Shown here piece after piece: positions 13,752 through 54,959 of a DNA stretch of 64,000 bases (position 1 is its first letter; each line of letters starts with the position of its first letter). The position numbers and the translations under genes were made by a program. Under the pieces are notes generated by a model. It ran no database searches, was not told the origin of the DNA, and worked only from the letters and a program-made list of their open reading frames with translations. The DNA is from Sphingobium sp. (GTDB lineage: Bacteria > Pseudomonadota > Alphaproteobacteria > Sphingomonadales > Sphingomonadaceae): the NCBI GenBank assembly GCA_017744605.1, contig JAGIAZ010000005.1, positions 82,197-146,196 of the forward strand, written 5' to 3'.

Positions 13752-13825
13752 GCGGGTATAGCTCAATGGTAGAGCACTAGCCTTCCAAGCTTGTGATGCG
13801 GGTTCGATCCCCGCTACCCGCTCCA
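13752..13825 (+). tRNA. tRNA-Gly(UCC), prophage integration target, intact copy
   Basis: Acceptor GCGGGTA/TACCCGC, anticodon loop CTTCCAA, T-arm GCGGGTTCGATCCCCGC, encoded CCA. Confidence 0.93.
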
Positions 13826-13829
13826 GCCT
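13778..13829 (+). repeat. attL core (52 bp)
   Basis: TAGCCTTCCAAGCTTGTGATGCGGGTTCGATCCCCGCTACCCGCTCCAGCCT identical to 54908-54959. Confidence 0.95.
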
Positions 13830-16276: not shown

Positions 16277-17674
16277 TCAGGTGCGAACTGCGGGGTAGGA
16301 GAATTCGGAAGGTAACAGGCCGACCCGCCATGCCTGCGCTTCCAAAACGGACTTGATGTTGCTGGGAACACCCTCACAAATATCGCCATTCCGAGGGCAT
16401 TCGGCGAAGAGAAAGCGGCCCGGATTTGGCAGTCCGTCGAGCTTAATTTCGATGAGGCTGCCGTGCATTGGGTCAGGATCGCGATCGATGACCTTATGGG
16501 GAATGGCACCCGACTTGATGCCGCGAGCCCAACCGACACAGGCCAAGCCAGCCGCTCGCTGTTCCACATTCTCGCAACGGAGAATCTCGGCGGGATCGAT
16601 TTCGTCGCGATTGACGACCCAATTTGCCGGTAGGCGCGTACCGTGCCACGCGAACAGGGCAGACCCATCTCGCCATGCGCAGAATGGCCCATCTTCGCCG
16701 TGCGGCCGATTGCCCGCATCGACTGTTAAAATCGATGGACGATCCGAGATCATGCAAAAATCTGGATGCATTATCCGCGGGCCAGAATGCTCAGCCAGCG
16801 CGCGCCAGTGGTTCCATTTCGAATAATCTAGAGGTAGCTGAGCCACGTCCTGAAAGAAGCTCAAATAAGCATCCTCACCGGCCCATTGATTGCCGCCTGA
16901 CCACATCTGATAAGCATTTGCCGCGCAGCGAAGGCCGAAATCGCCGACCCCGATCTCGTGCGCAAGCTGGCGCATGTCAGCAGGCACATAATACCAGTTT
17001 GAGAGATCATCCCCGGTCGCATCCCTGGTCGCATCCCTGGTCGCAGCCCTGGTCGCATCCCAGGTCGCAGCCCTGGTCGCAGCCCCGGTCGCAGCCCTGG
17101 TCGCAGCCCCGGTCGCATCCCCGGTCGCATCCCCGGTCGCATCCCCGGTCGCAGCCCTGGTCGCAGCCCAGGTCGCAGCCCAGGTCGCATCCCCGGTCGC
17201 ATCCCTGGTCGCAGCCCCGGTCGCAGCCCAGGTCGCATCCCAGGTCGCATCCCTGGTCGCAGCCCCGGTCGCAGCCCAGGTCGCAGCCCAGGTCGCAGCC
17301 CAGGTCGCATCCCCGGTCGCATCCCTGGTCGCAGCCCCGGTCGCAGCCCAGGTCGCAGCCCTGGTCGCAGCCCTGGTCGCATCCCCGGTCGCAGCCCCGG
17401 TCGCAGCCCTGGTCGCAGCCCCTTTGCTGTGCCGGTGCCAAATGGAAGCGGCGAAACCGCCTGCAAAGGCCAGCACGAACGGAGATGGCACGAATACGAT
17501 ATGTTTCGGCGCCGGAAGATTGGCAGCGGCATAGAGACCAAGAACCGCCGAGCGGCAAATTTCACGATCCAGATCCGTCATGGCAGCCGTGGACATCGCG
17601 TTGGCGATCCAGCGATCACGCCATTCGGGGAAACGAGCGCGATGCTCGGGTATGAGTTCGTATTTCTTGCTCAT
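16277..17674 (-). CDS. Tetrapeptide-repeat protein with DUF6745-like C-terminus (recollected family)
   Basis: 34 (G/R/W)(A/D)AT tetrapeptides between two unique domains; C-term FAWHGTRLPANWVVNRDEIDPAEILRCENVEQR. Confidence 0.7.
   Translation of the reverse strand: MSKKYELIPEHRARFPEWRDRWIANAMSTAAMTDLDREICRSAVLGLYAAANLPAPKHIVFVPSPFVLAFAGGFAASIWHRHSKGAATRAATGAATGDATRAATRAATWAATGAATRDATGDATWAATWAATWAATGAATRDATWDATWAATGAATRDATGDATWAATWAATRAATGDATGDATGDATGAATRAATGAATRAATWDATRAATRDATRDATGDDLSNWYYVPADMRQLAHEIGVGDFGLRCAANAYQMWSGGNQWAGEDAYLSFFQDVAQLPLDYSKWNHWRALAEHSGPRIMHPDFCMISDRPSILTVDAGNRPHGEDGPFCAWRDGSALFAWHGTRLPANWVVNRDEIDPAEILRCENVEQRAAGLACVGWARGIKSGAIPHKVIDRDPDPMHGSLIEIKLDGLPNPGRFLFAECPRNGDICEGVPSNIKSVLEAQAWRVGLLPSEFSYPAVRT
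17011..17430 (-). repeat. 12-bp tandem array, + strand unit GGTCGCA[G/T]CCC[C/T/A]
   Basis: 34 consecutive in-frame units plus partial ends read directly. Confidence 0.97.
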
Positions 17675-18282: not shown

Positions 18283-18304
18283 AAAGCACATCTAAATGTG
18301 CCAT
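18283..18304. promoter_or_regulatory. Predicted repressor operator OL1
   Basis: AAAGCACAT-CTAA-ATGTGCCAT, same inverted repeat as between cI and cro. Confidence 0.75.
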
Positions 18305-18312
18305 GCAACAGA

Positions 18313-18334
18313 AAAGAACATAGAGATGTGCTTT
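18313..18334. promoter_or_regulatory. Predicted repressor operator OL2
   Basis: AAAGAACAT-AGAG-ATGTGCTTT; 1 mismatch to consensus; centre 30 bp from OL1. Confidence 0.75.
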
Positions 18335-18354
18335 TATGGTGCGCGACGCGTCAC

Positions 18355-18477
18355 TGCAGCTCGATGGTCTCACCCGGCTTGCACATGGCGATCTCGAACC
18401 GCCGTGTCGGGCCGCGCTTGTTCGGGTAATCAGCGCCGACGATGGCGAGGGAGAGCTGGCGGGGCTGCGGCACGTGG
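18355..18477 (-). pseudogene. Possible HIRAN-domain fragment
   Basis: By-eye translation MPQPRQLSLAIVGADYPNKRGPTRRFEIAMCKPGETIELQ*, resembles HIRAN N-terminus but stops early; GTG start. Confidence 0.4.
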
Positions 18478-18486
18478 CTTGAGCAG

Positions 18487-18927
18487 CTATGCGGTCGGAA
18501 TGAACTTAACTGCTATGCCGACGATGGCGGCGATGATCGTCATCAAGATTCCCATCTTCACGAGAAAGTTGTGAAGCTTCGTATCGATCCAATCCTTCGT
18601 CGGGAGATTATCGACCTTCACCTTGATTTCGGCAACCTCGACCGGCAGCCCAATCAGCTTGTCGAGATCGGCGCGAATGTGTTTCACTTCCGCCTCCAAT
18701 ACTGCAACTCGCGCTTCCATCCCTGGCCCTCCGGGTCCGCCTCCTGTGCCGCCGGTTTGAGATGGAGGCAAGTCTCGACCTCCGCCGCCGCCCAGCAAAG
18801 CATCGGTGAATGCTACGATTGCAGGCTTTATATTTGATTGCACCGCTTTCGACGCAAGAGGCGTTTTCTGGGATAGCTGGGAGCCAGTATCCGCGACCAG
18901 CCTCAAATGCTCATTCTGCATCGCCAT
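18487..18927 (-). CDS. Coiled-coil protein with C-terminal TM anchor
   Basis: MEARVAVLEAEVKHIRADLDKL coiled coil; LVKMGILMTIIAAIVGIAVKF TM. Confidence 0.65.
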   Translation of the reverse strand: MAMQNEHLRLVADTGSQLSQKTPLASKAVQSNIKPAIVAFTDALLGGGGGRDLPPSQTGGTGGGPGGPGMEARVAVLEAEVKHIRADLDKLIGLPVEVAEIKVKVDNLPTKDWIDTKLHNFLVKMGILMTIIAAIVGIAVKFIPTA

Positions 18928-19243
18928 CGCTGTCTATATCCTCGCCCTGCTGTGCCTGTAGGTCGTCGAATGCCTTCTGAAATGACGTGACAATCGACGG
19001 CAGCATAACATGAGGGATGGCTATCGTGATATTCGGTCGAAGCGCGGGACTTTTGGCGCCCGGGGCCGGATTAAACACAATCTCTGCAAGCACAAATCGA
19101 TGAATTGCGCCTGCCGAAGCGTGCCCAACGACCTGTTCCACAATGAGAGTCGGCGTGTCACGCCACGCAACTTGCGGCCCATTGTCTTCATTCGAGGGCG
19201 GCAAGCTTTCATCCGAAGCTTTGGCATCTTCGTCTTTGCTCAT
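18911..19243 (-). CDS. Hypothetical protein
   Basis: MSKDEDAKASDESLPP...; overlaps next ORF start. Confidence 0.5.
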   Translation of the reverse strand: MSKDEDAKASDESLPPSNEDNGPQVAWRDTPTLIVEQVVGHASAGAIHRFVLAEIVFNPAPGAKSPALRPNITIAIPHVMLPSIVTSFQKAFDDLQAQQGEDIDSDGDAE

Positions 19244-19335
19244 CCAATCCCCCGTCGATTCGCTATTGCCACGCCACCTAATCACTAAGTCGATGCCGCG
19301 CAAATACGCTATCATCTATAAGCTCGCGAGCCTCA

Positions 19336-19734
19336 TCAACACCACGGATGCCGCGCCCCATCCCACTTCCGAGCAAGGCCGCGCGAGATCAATTCCGAAC
19401 CAACCGATTCCCCATCGCGCACAAGCACCCGAAGTTGCCGCCCATAGCGGTCGACCTGGCGGCCGTTCACACGCAGCTCGAACGCGCCGGCATTGACCCA
19501 TGCGAGCAGCACCTGCGTGGCACGATCGCCGAGCGCCTTTTCGGCCGGGCATTTGGGCTGATGCGTCTCCGGCGCGTCGATGTCGCTGATCCTGATTTTG
19601 ACGCGGTCGATCCATAGCGTGTCGCCATCGACAACGCAGTTCATGCCGCCGCCGGTGTGGCAGAAGGTGAAGGTGCGCGGTGGGATTGGGGTGCAGTTGG
19701 TTGCGCAGGATGCGGCCAAGACTAGAAAAATCAT
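19336..19734 (-). CDS. Exported thermonuclease (SNase-like)
   Basis: VVDGDTLWIDRVKIRISDIDAPET, GRQVDRYGRQLRVL; short hydrophobic N-terminus MIFLVLAASC; ATG overlaps upstream TGA. Confidence 0.82.
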   Translation of the reverse strand: MIFLVLAASCATNCTPIPPRTFTFCHTGGGMNCVVDGDTLWIDRVKIRISDIDAPETHQPKCPAEKALGDRATQVLLAWVNAGAFELRVNGRQVDRYGRQLRVLVRDGESVGSELISRGLARKWDGARHPWC

Positions 19735-20153
19735 TTGGTCTTTGGGGCCGAGAAGACCGCGCCGCCGGTCGCTGGATCAAAAGTTATCACTCGCCCATCG
19801 GGACACGGCCAAGCATGACTATAGGCGATTAACGCTAGAACTTCCCAACGAGCATGGCGACGCTCTGGATGGTCTCGAAGTTCGGCCAGAAAAATATCGC
19901 GCGTTTGACTGTTTGCAGTCACATCGGGCCGGCAAATCACCTTCGTAGCGCCTAATACCGCCTCCTGACCAGAGAGATACCCATCCAGACGACCTAGGCA
20001 CAATCCAAGGAAAAAACTGTCAGTTGCTTGGCAAAAGCCCAGCATAGCATTGCCAGAATGCATATCTGACTGTGCGATCACTTCCTGAGGAGCGACGGTA
20101 AGAAGCCAACCTGTCGCCGCAACAATTAGAGGAATGTCCCGCCAAAACCTCAT
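19731..20153 (-). CDS. Exported Rap1a/Tai-like protein
   Basis: Signal peptide; FCQATDSFFLGLCLGRLDGYLSG..ICRPD..TANSQTRDIFLAELRDHPERRHARWEVLALIAYSHAWPC pattern. Confidence 0.6.
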   Translation of the reverse strand: MRFWRDIPLIVAATGWLLTVAPQEVIAQSDMHSGNAMLGFCQATDSFFLGLCLGRLDGYLSGQEAVLGATKVICRPDVTANSQTRDIFLAELRDHPERRHARWEVLALIAYSHAWPCPDGRVITFDPATGGAVFSAPKTK

Positions 20154-20223: not shown

Positions 20224-20889
20224 TCAAACCACGCGCGGGCGATAGTCTCCAACTACGAGACCCTTAATTTCGATAGTGTTGACGCCGGCTGGCGGATTGC
20301 GTGGATCAATCGGAGCTTGATGTTCAGGGTCATTGCTCTGCGGCCATAGCCAAGGCTTGCCATCGATCTCGCGCAGAAGCTTCACCGTAGCCTCGATCAG
20401 GCCGTCATCGGCATGGCTATAGACGATCACATGGTCACCATCGCGCGGCGGCCTGGCGTCGAGAACATCAACCCAAATTACGATAGCGCCCTCGCGGTAC
20501 TCCCGGTCCATGGACGAACCGCGGACCTCGAGCGCCTTAGCGTGGCGTTTAAACCGATTCGGAACCGGCACGTCAACCGGATACCAGTCCTCTCTGTCCC
20601 ACTCCACGGCCTCTCTGAAATCCCCTGCCTGGACATGTCCTGCGACAATTATCTCGACCGGCTTTGTGATCTCCGGCTTTTCGCCGCTCAGTTCCCAAGA
20701 GGGAACGCCCGCAACGCGCGCCAACTTCGCATAGGTGCGGAGATCGAGTCCATCCGAATGGCCATTAAGGAAATTGTAGAGCGAGTTTTTCCCCACGCCC
20801 GCTTCCTTGGCCCAAGTGCCAGGACGCAGACGCCGATCCAGCATGAATTTCCGCAGAAGGTCGCGTTTTTGGTCGGGTGACAGGGCCAT
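20224..20889 (-). CDS. CI-like repressor (HTH plus S24 peptidase)
   Basis: N-terminal HTH WAKEAGVGKNSLYNFLNG; IVAGHVQAGDF cleavage site; EVRGSSMD Ser; Lys at ATVKLL. Confidence 0.88.
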   Translation of the reverse strand: MALSPDQKRDLLRKFMLDRRLRPGTWAKEAGVGKNSLYNFLNGHSDGLDLRTYAKLARVAGVPSWELSGEKPEITKPVEIIVAGHVQAGDFREAVEWDREDWYPVDVPVPNRFKRHAKALEVRGSSMDREYREGAIVIWVDVLDARPPRDGDHVIVYSHADDGLIEATVKLLREIDGKPWLWPQSNDPEHQAPIDPRNPPAGVNTIEIKGLVVGDYRPRVV

Positions 20890-20910
20890 GCGGCGACGGC
20901 TAACAGAATA

Positions 20911-20932
20911 GAAGCCCATCCTGATGTGTTTC
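20911..20932. promoter_or_regulatory. Predicted repressor operator OR2 (degenerate)
   Basis: GAAGCCCAT-CCTG-ATGTGTTTC, 7/9 in each arm; centre 31 bp from OR1. Confidence 0.6.
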
Positions 20933-20941
20933 TGCTCTTGA

Positions 20942-20963
20942 AAAGCACATCCATATGTGCTTT
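20942..20963. promoter_or_regulatory. Predicted repressor operator OR1
   Basis: AAAGCACAT-CCAT-ATGTGCTTT, perfect 9-bp inverted repeat between divergent cI and cro. Confidence 0.85.
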
Positions 20964-20973
20964 GTGACCCGAC

Positions 20974-21180
20974 ATGGTTCATGAGATCATCAAGCGTGTG
21001 CGCGAGACCCTAGCCCAGCCGGGGATGAGCAAGCATAAACTGGCCATCGTCGCTGGCCTGCACCGCAACACTCTGCGTGACGTAGACGATCCGGACTGGA
21101 ACCCATCGGCCGCAACGTTGGCCGCTCTTGAGCCACATATCGTTGGCAGTGAAGTCGAAGCCTCCCCGGAGGCCGCATGA
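20974..21180 (+). CDS. Cro-like regulator
   Basis: Small HTH KHKLAIVAGLHRNTLRDVDDPDWNPSAATLAAL; divergent from repressor. Confidence 0.75.
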   Translation: MVHEIIKRVRETLAQPGMSKHKLAIVAGLHRNTLRDVDDPDWNPSAATLAALEPHIVGSEVEASPEAA

Positions 21181-49048: not shown

Positions 49049-50092
49049 TTAAGCTGCCGGCGCCTCTCGGGCCACTACATCTCGCCTCGGACGGGCTCTC
49101 AGCAGCTTGAGCAGCGGCTTCTCGGCCAGCACATGCACCGCGATGCCAAAGACCACGCAGGCGAGCGCGACGGAGACCGGGATCGCGGCAACTCCCGCTG
49201 GAACGAGCGTCACCAGCGCCAAGATCACCGCTTCGTGATTGAGGTAGAGCGCATAGCTGCTGTCGCCCAGCTTGCCGATGCGCTGCAAGAGCGGGTGCGA
49301 GCCTGCGTGCCGTTCCCAGCATACCAGGCCCAGCACAAGCAACAGGCTCGGAGCCCCGAACGAAAAGGCTTCCCGCGTCTTGTCGTAGCCTATGGCCAGC
49401 ACGAGCATGAACAGCAGGATCGCGGCCCCGGTGATCGCGGCGCCCCAACGTTCCGGCAACTTGCCACGGACAGCCAGCCAACCGATCGCTGTGCCGCCCA
49501 GGAACTCCAGCAGCAGCACGCTCGTCATCTGGTTGAGCAGCGGGCCCTGGTTGTCGATGAGCGTGCCTACAGCGACGCAGCACAAGAAGAAGGCGGCGAG
49601 GATCATAAGCCCGCGCGTCAGGCCCAGCATCATCGCCAGGCCAAAGCAGATATAGAAATAGACCTCGAACGAGAGCGTCCATGCTGCGCCGATGAACCGG
49701 GGCGCGTCCGCCGGCAGCAGCAGCAGGGCTCCAATCGAATGCGTGAAGCTCACCGCGAAAGGCTGGCCGAACGCGGCGGCGGTTGCGAGCAGCAGCAAGA
49801 CCGAGATCCAGTAGATCGGGTAGATGCGGCCGAACCGGCGCGCGATGAAGTCCTTGAAGCTGTATCGGCTCTCGTTGGTGGTCATCACCATGATGAAGCC
49901 GCTCAGCACGAAGAACATGTGAACGCCTGCCCGCCCGAACGCGAACACGTACATCTCGGCTTCGGAGGCGGTGGCCAGATGTCTTTCGATCAAGACCAAA
50001 TGCGCGTGGTAGAGCGCGACCATGAATGCGGCCACGGCTCGCATCACCTGTAATGAATGCAATGTTCCACGCACTTGGTTCATCCGCTCCAT
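49049..50092 (-). CDS. Acyltransferase-3 family O-acyltransferase
   Basis: LQVMRAVAAFMVALYHA, FGRAGVHMFFVLSGFIM, many TMs. Confidence 0.88.
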   Translation of the reverse strand: MERMNQVRGTLHSLQVMRAVAAFMVALYHAHLVLIERHLATASEAEMYVFAFGRAGVHMFFVLSGFIMVMTTNESRYSFKDFIARRFGRIYPIYWISVLLLLATAAAFGQPFAVSFTHSIGALLLLPADAPRFIGAAWTLSFEVYFYICFGLAMMLGLTRGLMILAAFFLCCVAVGTLIDNQGPLLNQMTSVLLLEFLGGTAIGWLAVRGKLPERWGAAITGAAILLFMLVLAIGYDKTREAFSFGAPSLLLVLGLVCWERHAGSHPLLQRIGKLGDSSYALYLNHEAVILALVTLVPAGVAAIPVSVALACVVFGIAVHVLAEKPLLKLLRARPRRDVVAREAPAA

Positions 50093-50159
50093 ATCCGAAT
50101 AGCCGCCCATAACAGGGAAAGTGTGAATAGTCCGCAAAGGAGGGATTTGGTGGATGATT

Positions 50160-50375
50160 TCATGATGCCTTGGCATGCTCTGCCTCCACCGCCTCGCTGG
50201 CCTTGAGGTCGGCGGGGCGAGATATCTGCTCGGCTTCGAAGCGGGCGAAGGCTTGAAAGAGCGGGTGATCGTCGAGGCGTCCAGCTCGGGCAGCTTCTCT
50301 GGAGGCTTTCGCCCAACGGTAACGCATAAAGTCAGCCGCTGCATCCCTATGTCGCTGCTCAGGGGATGAGGTCAT
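50160..50375 (-). CDS. Hypothetical phage protein
   Basis: ATGA overlap with upstream ORF. Confidence 0.5.
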   Translation of the reverse strand: MTSSPEQRHRDAAADFMRYRWAKASREAARAGRLDDHPLFQAFARFEAEQISRPADLKASEAVEAEHAKAS

Positions 50376-53011: not shown

Positions 53012-53258
53012 CTGCTTGTCCTTTCATGATGTGGTTGCGGAGGGAGATTCCGTCAGATGTCAGGCGATCGCGGTGGAAGGCCACTGGCTCGGATAGCCCT
53101 CGTGATCTCAGCGCGCTCTGCTCACGCATATGCATCCATGCGCGTGTCAGATAATCGCCGTTAAAGGCTTCTCTTGCCGACAAGATGTTGAACCGCATCT
53201 TCGGCGTCAGCCCCTTCTCTAGGGCCGCCATCCGCTCAAGGTCGGTGGGGGGATTCAT
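52974..53258 (-). CDS. Hypothetical phage protein
   Basis: MNPPTDLERMAALEKGLTPKMRFNILSAREAFNGDYLTRAWMH; ATGA coupled to MTase stop. Confidence 0.5.
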   Translation of the reverse strand: MNPPTDLERMAALEKGLTPKMRFNILSAREAFNGDYLTRAWMHMREQSALRSRGLSEPVAFHRDRLTSDGISLRNHIMKGQADDQVHGRCDPAD

Positions 53259-54751
53259 GCTGCGAGGCTTTCGGATTTGATCTGGTCGACGAGATGGATG
53301 CGCTCGCCGATCCAGCGCATCACCGGGACCGCCATGCTGTTGCCGAGCATCTTGTAGCGCGGGCCATCGGCCATCATGCGGCCGCGGTAAGGGATCAGCG
53401 TGAAGTCGTCGGGAAAGCCCTGAAGGCGCTCGCACTCGCGCGGGGTGAGGCGGCGGACCCCCGATCGAACGATGTAGTCGCCACCCTGGTTTCCGCCCAC
53501 AGGGCCGCCCGCCATCACGGGCTGTGCAACGTCTGTCTCGCGCGCCTTGTAATCCTTCCCGCTGTTCATCGGCATGATGGAGAAGGCGACGGCAGCTGCC
53601 TGGGGCGATTGCGAGCCCAGCGAGCCGAACACATGCTCGGACGAGCAACAATCCTCGCGACTGTTGAACGCGATCGGCGAGCATATAGCCCCAACACCGA
53701 GCCCGCCTCTTCCACCATTGGGCGTCAAGATGGCATTGGCCGTTCCGTCAGATCGCCATTCAAGGTTCGGCACACCGTTCCGGCCACGCTCCATGAGAAC
53801 GAATGTCTCGCTCTCGAAGTCCTGTCTGCCATGCGGGCCACCATGCGAATTCAACGCGGCGGAAACGTCAATTGGCCCAGCGGTATTATTTCCACCGAAG
53901 GCGATAAGATGTCCGTGTCCGTGGTTGGCGTCTTGGCCGGAACATCCCTGAAGCCGACTAAAGCTGGCATCGAGGCATGGAGCTACCTCTTGCGCAATTA
54001 GCCCTTCGTCGCAATCAAAGTCGGTCCCGAGGCCGCCACCTCCAGTGCTGCGGCTAGGGCTGGTGGGAGCGCTTTGCCCCGGGCCTCTGCGCGGCGCAGG
54101 ATGCCCCGACAGGCCGTGGCGCTCAAAAAGTACCGCTGCGGCACGTCGCCAGTCTCCAAGATATCCGACAACGAAGACGCGACGGCGGCGCTGTGGAACT
54201 CCGGCATATTGTGCGTCGAGCACTCGGTAGGCGATCCCGTACCCGAGTTCTTGTAGTCCGGCCAGGAAACATCCGAACGCATGGTCTTCGTCTGCGTCGT
54301 AGCTATCTTCGACCACGATCTCTTCCCCGTCTTCGGGTCCGTCACCGGTGTCCAAGTCGATTTGCGGTGGACAGAAATCGGGAGCGTCGTGGGAAAGCGC
54401 GCTGAAAACTCCGGGGACATTCTCCCAGACGACCCAGCGGGGGCGTGCACGACCAGCAAGCTTGAGAAATTCGAGGGCCAAGTTGCCACGGTCATCAGCC
54501 AGTCCGCCTCTGAGACCTGCGATGCTGAACGACTGGCAGGGGGTTCCTCCGACAAGAAGGTCAACTGGTCCAAATTCGTCGCCTTGTATTTGGGTGAAGT
54601 CGCCCACGAGGGGGACGTCGGGATAGTAGTGGGCCAGCACAGCGCGGGGAGCGGCCTCGATCTCGGCATAGCAGAGCGCCTGCCATCCGAGCGGCTTCCA
54701 AGCTGCCGTGGGGGCACTGATGCCGGAACAGACATCGATGTAGCGGATCAC
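53255..54751 (-). CDS. DNA (cytosine-5) methyltransferase
   Basis: IDVCSGISAPTAAWKPLGW, GGTPCQSFS, WENVPG, RRLTPRECERLQGFPDDFT. Confidence 0.93.
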   Translation of the reverse strand: MIRYIDVCSGISAPTAAWKPLGWQALCYAEIEAAPRAVLAHYYPDVPLVGDFTQIQGDEFGPVDLLVGGTPCQSFSIAGLRGGLADDRGNLALEFLKLAGRARPRWVVWENVPGVFSALSHDAPDFCPPQIDLDTGDGPEDGEEIVVEDSYDADEDHAFGCFLAGLQELGYGIAYRVLDAQYAGVPQRRRRVFVVGYLGDWRRAAAVLFERHGLSGHPAPRRGPGQSAPTSPSRSTGGGGLGTDFDCDEGLIAQEVAPCLDASFSRLQGCSGQDANHGHGHLIAFGGNNTAGPIDVSAALNSHGGPHGRQDFESETFVLMERGRNGVPNLEWRSDGTANAILTPNGGRGGLGVGAICSPIAFNSREDCCSSEHVFGSLGSQSPQAAAVAFSIMPMNSGKDYKARETDVAQPVMAGGPVGGNQGGDYIVRSGVRRLTPRECERLQGFPDDFTLIPYRGRMMADGPRYKMLGNSMAVPVMRWIGERIHLVDQIKSESLAA

Positions 54752-54907: not shown

Positions 54908-54959
54908 TAGCCTTCCAAGCTTGTGATGCGGGTTCGATCCCCGCTACCCGCTCCAGCCT
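54908..54959 (+). repeat. attR core, duplicated 3' part of tRNA-Gly
   Basis: Identical 52 bp to attL; lacks 5' tRNA half. Confidence 0.95.

Follow-up and report, generated by a model that had tools for sequence, protein, structure and literature searches.

A Rap1a-like gene coupled to a thermonuclease gene behind the cI repressor of a Sphingobium prophage: a possible lysogenic-conversion cassette

Introduction

In phage lambda, the rexAB genes occupy the slot between the repressor gene and the leftward operator. Exclusion genes of Fc02 are also located in a repressor region (PMC9936078). DNases encoded on integrated elements can interfere with transformation: the prophage SNase YokF cuts it about tenfold, and the DNases Dns (of CJIE1) and IdeA lower it by 2-3 logs (PMC4774983). 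Rap1a proteins of known function neutralise periplasmic Tae4-type enzymes and have a disulfide-stabilised fold (PMC3852654), and Spackle of phage T4 inhibits the gp5 lysozyme in the periplasm (PMC7677548). In the literature searched, we found no work linking an exported SNase or a Rap1a protein to superinfection exclusion. Here we describe a prophage in which a Rap1a-like gene and an SNase gene overlap directly behind the repressor gene.

Results

Prophage and gene order

The window, i.e. the whole stretch of DNA analysed (64,000 nucleotides from Sphingobium sp., assembly GCA_017744605.1, contig JAGIAZ010000005.1, positions 82,197 to 146,196), contains a prophage with an integrase gene beside the first of two direct repeats, and terminase and lysozyme genes farther along (Table 1). 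The minus-strand order is cI, Rap1a-like gene, SNase gene, hypothetical gene, gene for a coiled-coil membrane protein and a 40-aa HIRAN ORF. Four of these ORFs had been described in a first-pass annotation and all are present, position and strand included; its view that the cassette ends ahead of a second operator pair is borne out by the positions of the operators. The HIRAN remnant was absent from that annotation.

Table 1. Positions (in the window) of the prophage and of the features around its repressor gene
Feature	Position	Strand	Remarks
Prophage, 41.2 kb	13778-54959		integrated in tRNA-Gly(TCC)
52-bp direct repeats (attachment sites)	13778-13829 and 54908-54959		first copy within the tRNA-Gly gene
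Second operator pair (predicted)	18286-18301 and 18316-18331		precedes leftward genes ending with the integrase gene
40-aa HIRAN-domain gene remnant	18351-18473	-	74% identity with the beginning of the intact HIRAN gene of G059
Coiled-coil protein, C-terminal membrane segment	18487-18927	-	relatives behind repressor-type genes in other prophages
Hypothetical soluble protein, 110 aa	18911-19243	-	ORF open to 19315
SNase (thermonuclease family)	19336-19734	-	PF00565, E=3.6e-9
Rap1a-family predicted exported protein	19731-20153	-	PF18602, E=1.2e-11
cI-like repressor	20224-20982	-	HTH-like and S24 peptidase; PF00717 2.7e-9, phrog_4 1.4e-16
Operator pair, cI/cro side (predicted)	20914-20929 and 20945-20960		from palindrome pattern

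Other features of the prophage lie outside this cassette. The leftward genes include a DUF6745 gene (16277-17674) in which a 12-bp repeat occurs ∼34 times (91% matches; 17011-17422), and the related prophage L199 likewise has a repeat-rich ORF (AMALAM...) among its leftward genes. An acyltransferase-3 gene (49049-50344) lies downstream of the lysis genes on the opposite strand; its product could modify O-antigen, which would possibly make it a second conversion gene. A C5 cytosine methyltransferase (53255-54751, 498 aa), matched in three separate stretches, is encoded beside the right attachment site.

Repressor, operators and predicted transcription

The predicted operators comprise two exact occurrences of GCACATNNNNATGTGC, at 18286 and 20945; a degenerate copy lies ∼30 bp from each (at 18316 and 20914, respectively). 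When two mismatches are allowed, the pattern is seen seven times in the whole window versus 3.5 expected, slightly above chance; the case for these operators therefore rests on the exact sites, on their pairing and on related prophages, as G022, G038, G018 and phage Pan3 have related palindromes at both positions, ahead of cI and ahead of the leftward genes. The cI proteins of the first three prophages are 58-61% identical to the window repressor and a protein of Pseudanabaena phage Pan3 is 59% identical; no close cI relatives were found in viral contigs. The repressor likely starts at 20889 or 20919, and the first codons of its ORF are probably untranslated, because an operator overlies the ATG at 20919.

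No terminator-like site was found on the coding strand between cI and the Rap1a-like gene, and promoter-like sites are at chance level, so co-transcription of the cassette with cI is likely. The first-pass proposal that the cassette is lysogen-side cargo in the cI operon, apart from the lytic operon, agrees with its position, with the lack of a terminator-like site and with the variable content of the corresponding slot in relatives.

A variable slot between cI and the leftward operators

The content of this slot differs among related prophages: it holds no clear gene in G022 and G038; in G018 (L201 9504-11434) it codes for an exported protein of 250 aa and for two membrane proteins, one of them with a TM2 domain; and in phage Pan3 it has one lipoprotein-like gene in the opposite direction. 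Because it is empty or filled with other envelope genes in these relatives, we read the interval between cI and the operators as a cargo slot.

The two genes at the far end of the cassette are seen together elsewhere: in G059 a different repressor gene is followed by a relative of the coiled-coil gene and then by an intact HIRAN gene. The simplest reading of this arrangement is that the coiled-coil and HIRAN genes would be the older tail of such repressor operons, with the Rap1a-like, SNase and hypothetical genes inserted ahead of them. The coiled-coil region matches uncharacterised phage families only (phrog_3556, 1.6e-7), and this protein had no close relatives in viral contigs and none by tblastn against phages. 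Its gene overlaps that of the hypothetical protein by 17 nt; neither protein has a Pfam match. The best start of the hypothetical gene is at 19243, behind a GGGGG motif, and the AlphaFold model of its product (pLDDT 51.3) is too low in confidence to interpret. The host's family provides a single clear relative of the hypothetical protein, in G176, and phage tblastn gave none. The G176 relative (L340 9611-10939) overlaps a gene for a protein with two TM segments and adjoins two lipoprotein-like genes; an SNase-like gene beside it was dropped, as Pfam gave no confirmation.

The Rap1a-like and SNase genes

The Rap1a-like protein scores 45.4 bits against PF18602 (curated cut-off 27.7), and the family profile matches the solved structures of Rap1a (9e-5) and Tai4 (4e-4). 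By inspection, its N-terminus is a hydrophobic leader; its cysteines C41, C52, C74 and C117 occupy four of the five invariant columns of our alignment of the family (A2). The gene is preceded by a GGAGG motif and has a GC3 of 0.47, a foreign composition. The single-sequence AlphaFold model (pLDDT 39.8) is too low in confidence to judge whether the fold is all-helical. Close relatives were found neither in viral contigs nor in genome contigs, and phage tblastn returned none. A T6SS Tae4-Tai4/Rap immunity system was considered and rejected: no cognate Tae4 (PF14113) is encoded next to the gene, its neighbour being an SNase gene instead, or elsewhere in the host assembly (81% complete).

The SNase gene is coupled to the Rap1a-like gene, its ATG overlapping the preceding TGA by 4 bp (ATGA). 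Its 132-aa product scores 37.5 bits against PF00565 (cut-off 21) and also matches a thermonuclease in the PDB. The catalytic residues D36, D38, R48, D53, E56 and R99 are all present and, like the cysteines C25, C33, C62 and C132, show no variation across seven relatives (alignment A4). Its family suggests that the protein may be exported: the N-terminus is hydrophobic in 65 of the 66 distinct viral relatives, and a Cys directly precedes the DGDT motif in 64 of the 66. The leader of the window SNase (MIFLVLAASC) is, however, very short and free of K and R; two viral relatives have equally short ones (MLAGLILAAAFGLC... and MLLLAALLTIC...). The suggestion in the first-pass annotation that the SNase might be a lipoprotein is weak, since a lipoprotein signal combines a positively charged n-region with a lipobox of the form [LVI][ASTVI][GAS]C, whereas neither K nor R occurs in this leader, whose lipobox position -3 is Ala. 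PADLOC gave a weak match of the SNase to C3a212 (5e-5) and none for the Rap1a-like protein; no described anti-phage system was matched.

Rap1a-SNase pairing in other genomes

We gathered 130 distinct Rap1a loci irrespective of their neighbours, and most of these Rap1a genes have no SNase neighbour. A same-strand SNase gene within ∼200 bp was seen at five of them: the window, G514, G601, G740 and G515. The pairs in G514, G601 and G740 are Pfam-confirmed and their frames overlap, with the SNase gene coming first in G514; the SNase of G515 was identified by profile and its start codon is ambiguous. A further pair in G701 was kept as a weak case only, its SNase having no Pfam match. By our own estimate, assuming 1 to 5 SNase genes per genome, 0.03-0.13 such neighbours are expected by chance, giving P∼1e-5 for four pairs at the highest density tried and ∼3e-4 for three (a hand estimate). 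On the Rap1a tree, which is built from few columns and has many unresolved forks, the pairs are scattered: six changes of the pair label are required, and well-supported branches force three or more of these. The pairing therefore arose repeatedly, or is very old and was often lost. The first-pass annotation had called for a check of co-occurrence, and the association of the two genes proves to be real.

Some of the pairs have putative defence genes nearby: an abortive-infection gene, AbiD (2.5e-54), adjoins the G514 pair, a PDC-M63A gene (9.8e-12) directly follows the G601 pair and a PDC-S59 gene (4.1e-25) is near the weak G701 pair; no defence gene was found near the G740 or G515 pair. Set against ∼3-5 of 36 controls (an approximate count taken from the family tally), the 3 of 6 loci with such a gene, which include the weak G701 pair, amount to a marginal enrichment (p 0.03-0.07). 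The G740 pair sits among metabolic genes, with no obvious mobile element.

SNase genes themselves are frequent: 159 out of 251 genomes of the host family have them, and 108 were confirmed in viral contigs. Of the viral SNase loci, 80 were sampled and not one has a Rap1a neighbour, so the nuclease does not need Rap1a. This weakens the first-pass idea that the Rap1a-like protein could be an immunity factor for the nuclease, and an obligatory role of that kind appears unlikely. Four of the 80 loci lie 350-570 bp from an S24 repressor gene, three of these with a gene for a small exported protein in between. An S24 repressor gene, a gene for a small exported protein and a convergent SNase gene adjoin each other in viral contigs L275 (4926-6498), L273 (4854-6468) and L291 (4971-6662). 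In Dinoroseobacter phage R4C (L207 4691-6351) the start of an SNase gene overlaps the stop of the integrase gene.

Discussion

Possible function of the cassette

We tentatively propose, giving it somewhat less than an even chance, that the genes form a lysogenic-conversion (moron) cassette in a rexAB-like slot, whose exported SNase would cut incoming DNA with the assistance of the Rap1a-like protein; an envelope barrier against incoming DNA is the likeliest function suggested by the genes. The cassette would be read from the cI transcript in the lysogen, and the SNase, exported via its hydrophobic N-terminus, would form disulfides while folding, be it in the periplasm or at the membrane, and would cut foreign double-stranded DNA crossing the envelope, i.e. 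transforming DNA and possibly the genomes of other phages. The Rap1a-like protein, translationally coupled and exported to the same compartment, may assist there by positioning or restraining the nuclease, or by blocking a peptidoglycan enzyme of an incoming agent. The precedent set by DNases of mobile elements is one of blocked transformation (PMC4774983), and phage DNA, the target named in the first-pass annotation, may be no more plausible than transforming DNA: SPbeta-type yokF matches the window SNase at 32-37% identity, the host assembly encodes ComEC, and transforming DNA could recombine the prophage away.

A broader proposal, which we regard as rather doubtful, is that Rap1a and SNase may constitute a small two-gene envelope defence module that was assembled repeatedly and is carried by prophages and other elements. 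A protein of the T6SS-immunity type would here have been co-opted to work with an exported nuclease, so as to destroy DNA in periplasmic transit. Should DNA entry be what the pair acts on, the prophage would supply an envelope barrier ahead of cytosolic defences such as restriction or CRISPR; prophage persistence would be tied to the control of transformation, and there would be a function for some of the many Rap1a/Tai-family genes that have no Tae4 or type VI genes nearby. The recurrent coupling of the two genes is the part of these results most deserving follow-up.

Other readings differ in which of the two proteins would matter. It might be the Rap1a-like protein that does the excluding: acting in the periplasm, it would inhibit muralytic enzymes, either T6SS amidases or the tail lysozymes of superinfecting phages, and the SNase would be an independent passenger. 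The profile matches to the Rap1a and Tai4 structures, the neutralisation of Tae4-type enzymes by Rap1a (PMC3852654) and the inhibition of gp5 lysozyme by Spackle (PMC7677548) all point that way, but this reading leaves the recurrent coupling to SNase genes unexplained and the host assembly, 81% complete, has no Tae4, and we consider it rather doubtful. The same coupling bears on whether the two genes are simply popular cargo of mobile elements, standing side by side without a joint function. SNases are indeed common in the host family and in viral contigs, Rap1a was found at none of the 80 viral loci, and most Rap1a genes have no SNase neighbour; however, the pairs are on the same strand, usually with overlapping frames, in unrelated lineages, and 3-4 of them are seen where 0.03-0.13 are expected, which makes chance cargo unlikely.

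It is quite improbable that the SNase serves nutrition, the turnover of biofilm DNA or chromosome breakdown in lytic growth. YokF has also been tied to degradation of chromosomal DNA, to judge by the title of reference 128 in PMC4774983, but the window SNase gene is behind cI and outside the lytic operons, and expression in the lysogen is therefore predicted. As the Rap1a family is named after immunity proteins and the two genes are coupled, they might also be a toxin and its antidote, with the exported SNase attacking neighbouring cells or re-entering kin. Against this, relatives of the nuclease occur without Rap1a and the 132-aa SNase has no delivery domain; to our knowledge, moreover, a Sec-exported nuclease normally needs no periplasmic antidote. 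We consider such a pair very improbable.

Comparison with known systems

The proposed conversion cassette is like lambda rexAB and repressor-linked exclusion genes in that its cargo lies between the repressor gene and the leftward operators, on the cI strand, varies among relatives and is predicted to be expressed in the lysogen; unlike rexAB, it encodes a nuclease, a Rap1a-like protein and a coiled-coil membrane protein. It shares with YokF of SPbeta, Dns of CJIE1 and IdeA a DNase-family gene on an integrated element (a prophage or ICE), YokF likewise being an SNase; it differs from them in that its SNase gene is in the cI operon of another phage type and is coupled to a Rap1a-like gene. The likeness to T4 Spackle, a small phage protein of the periplasm, is one of analogy only: T4 is lytic, and we claim no sequence relation between the two proteins. 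The T6SS Rap1a/Tai4 immunity proteins (PDB 3zfi, 4bi8 and 6ije) have the Pfam family, predicted export and conserved cysteines in common with the window protein, whereas its gene has no Tae4 partner and is instead paired with a prophage SNase gene.
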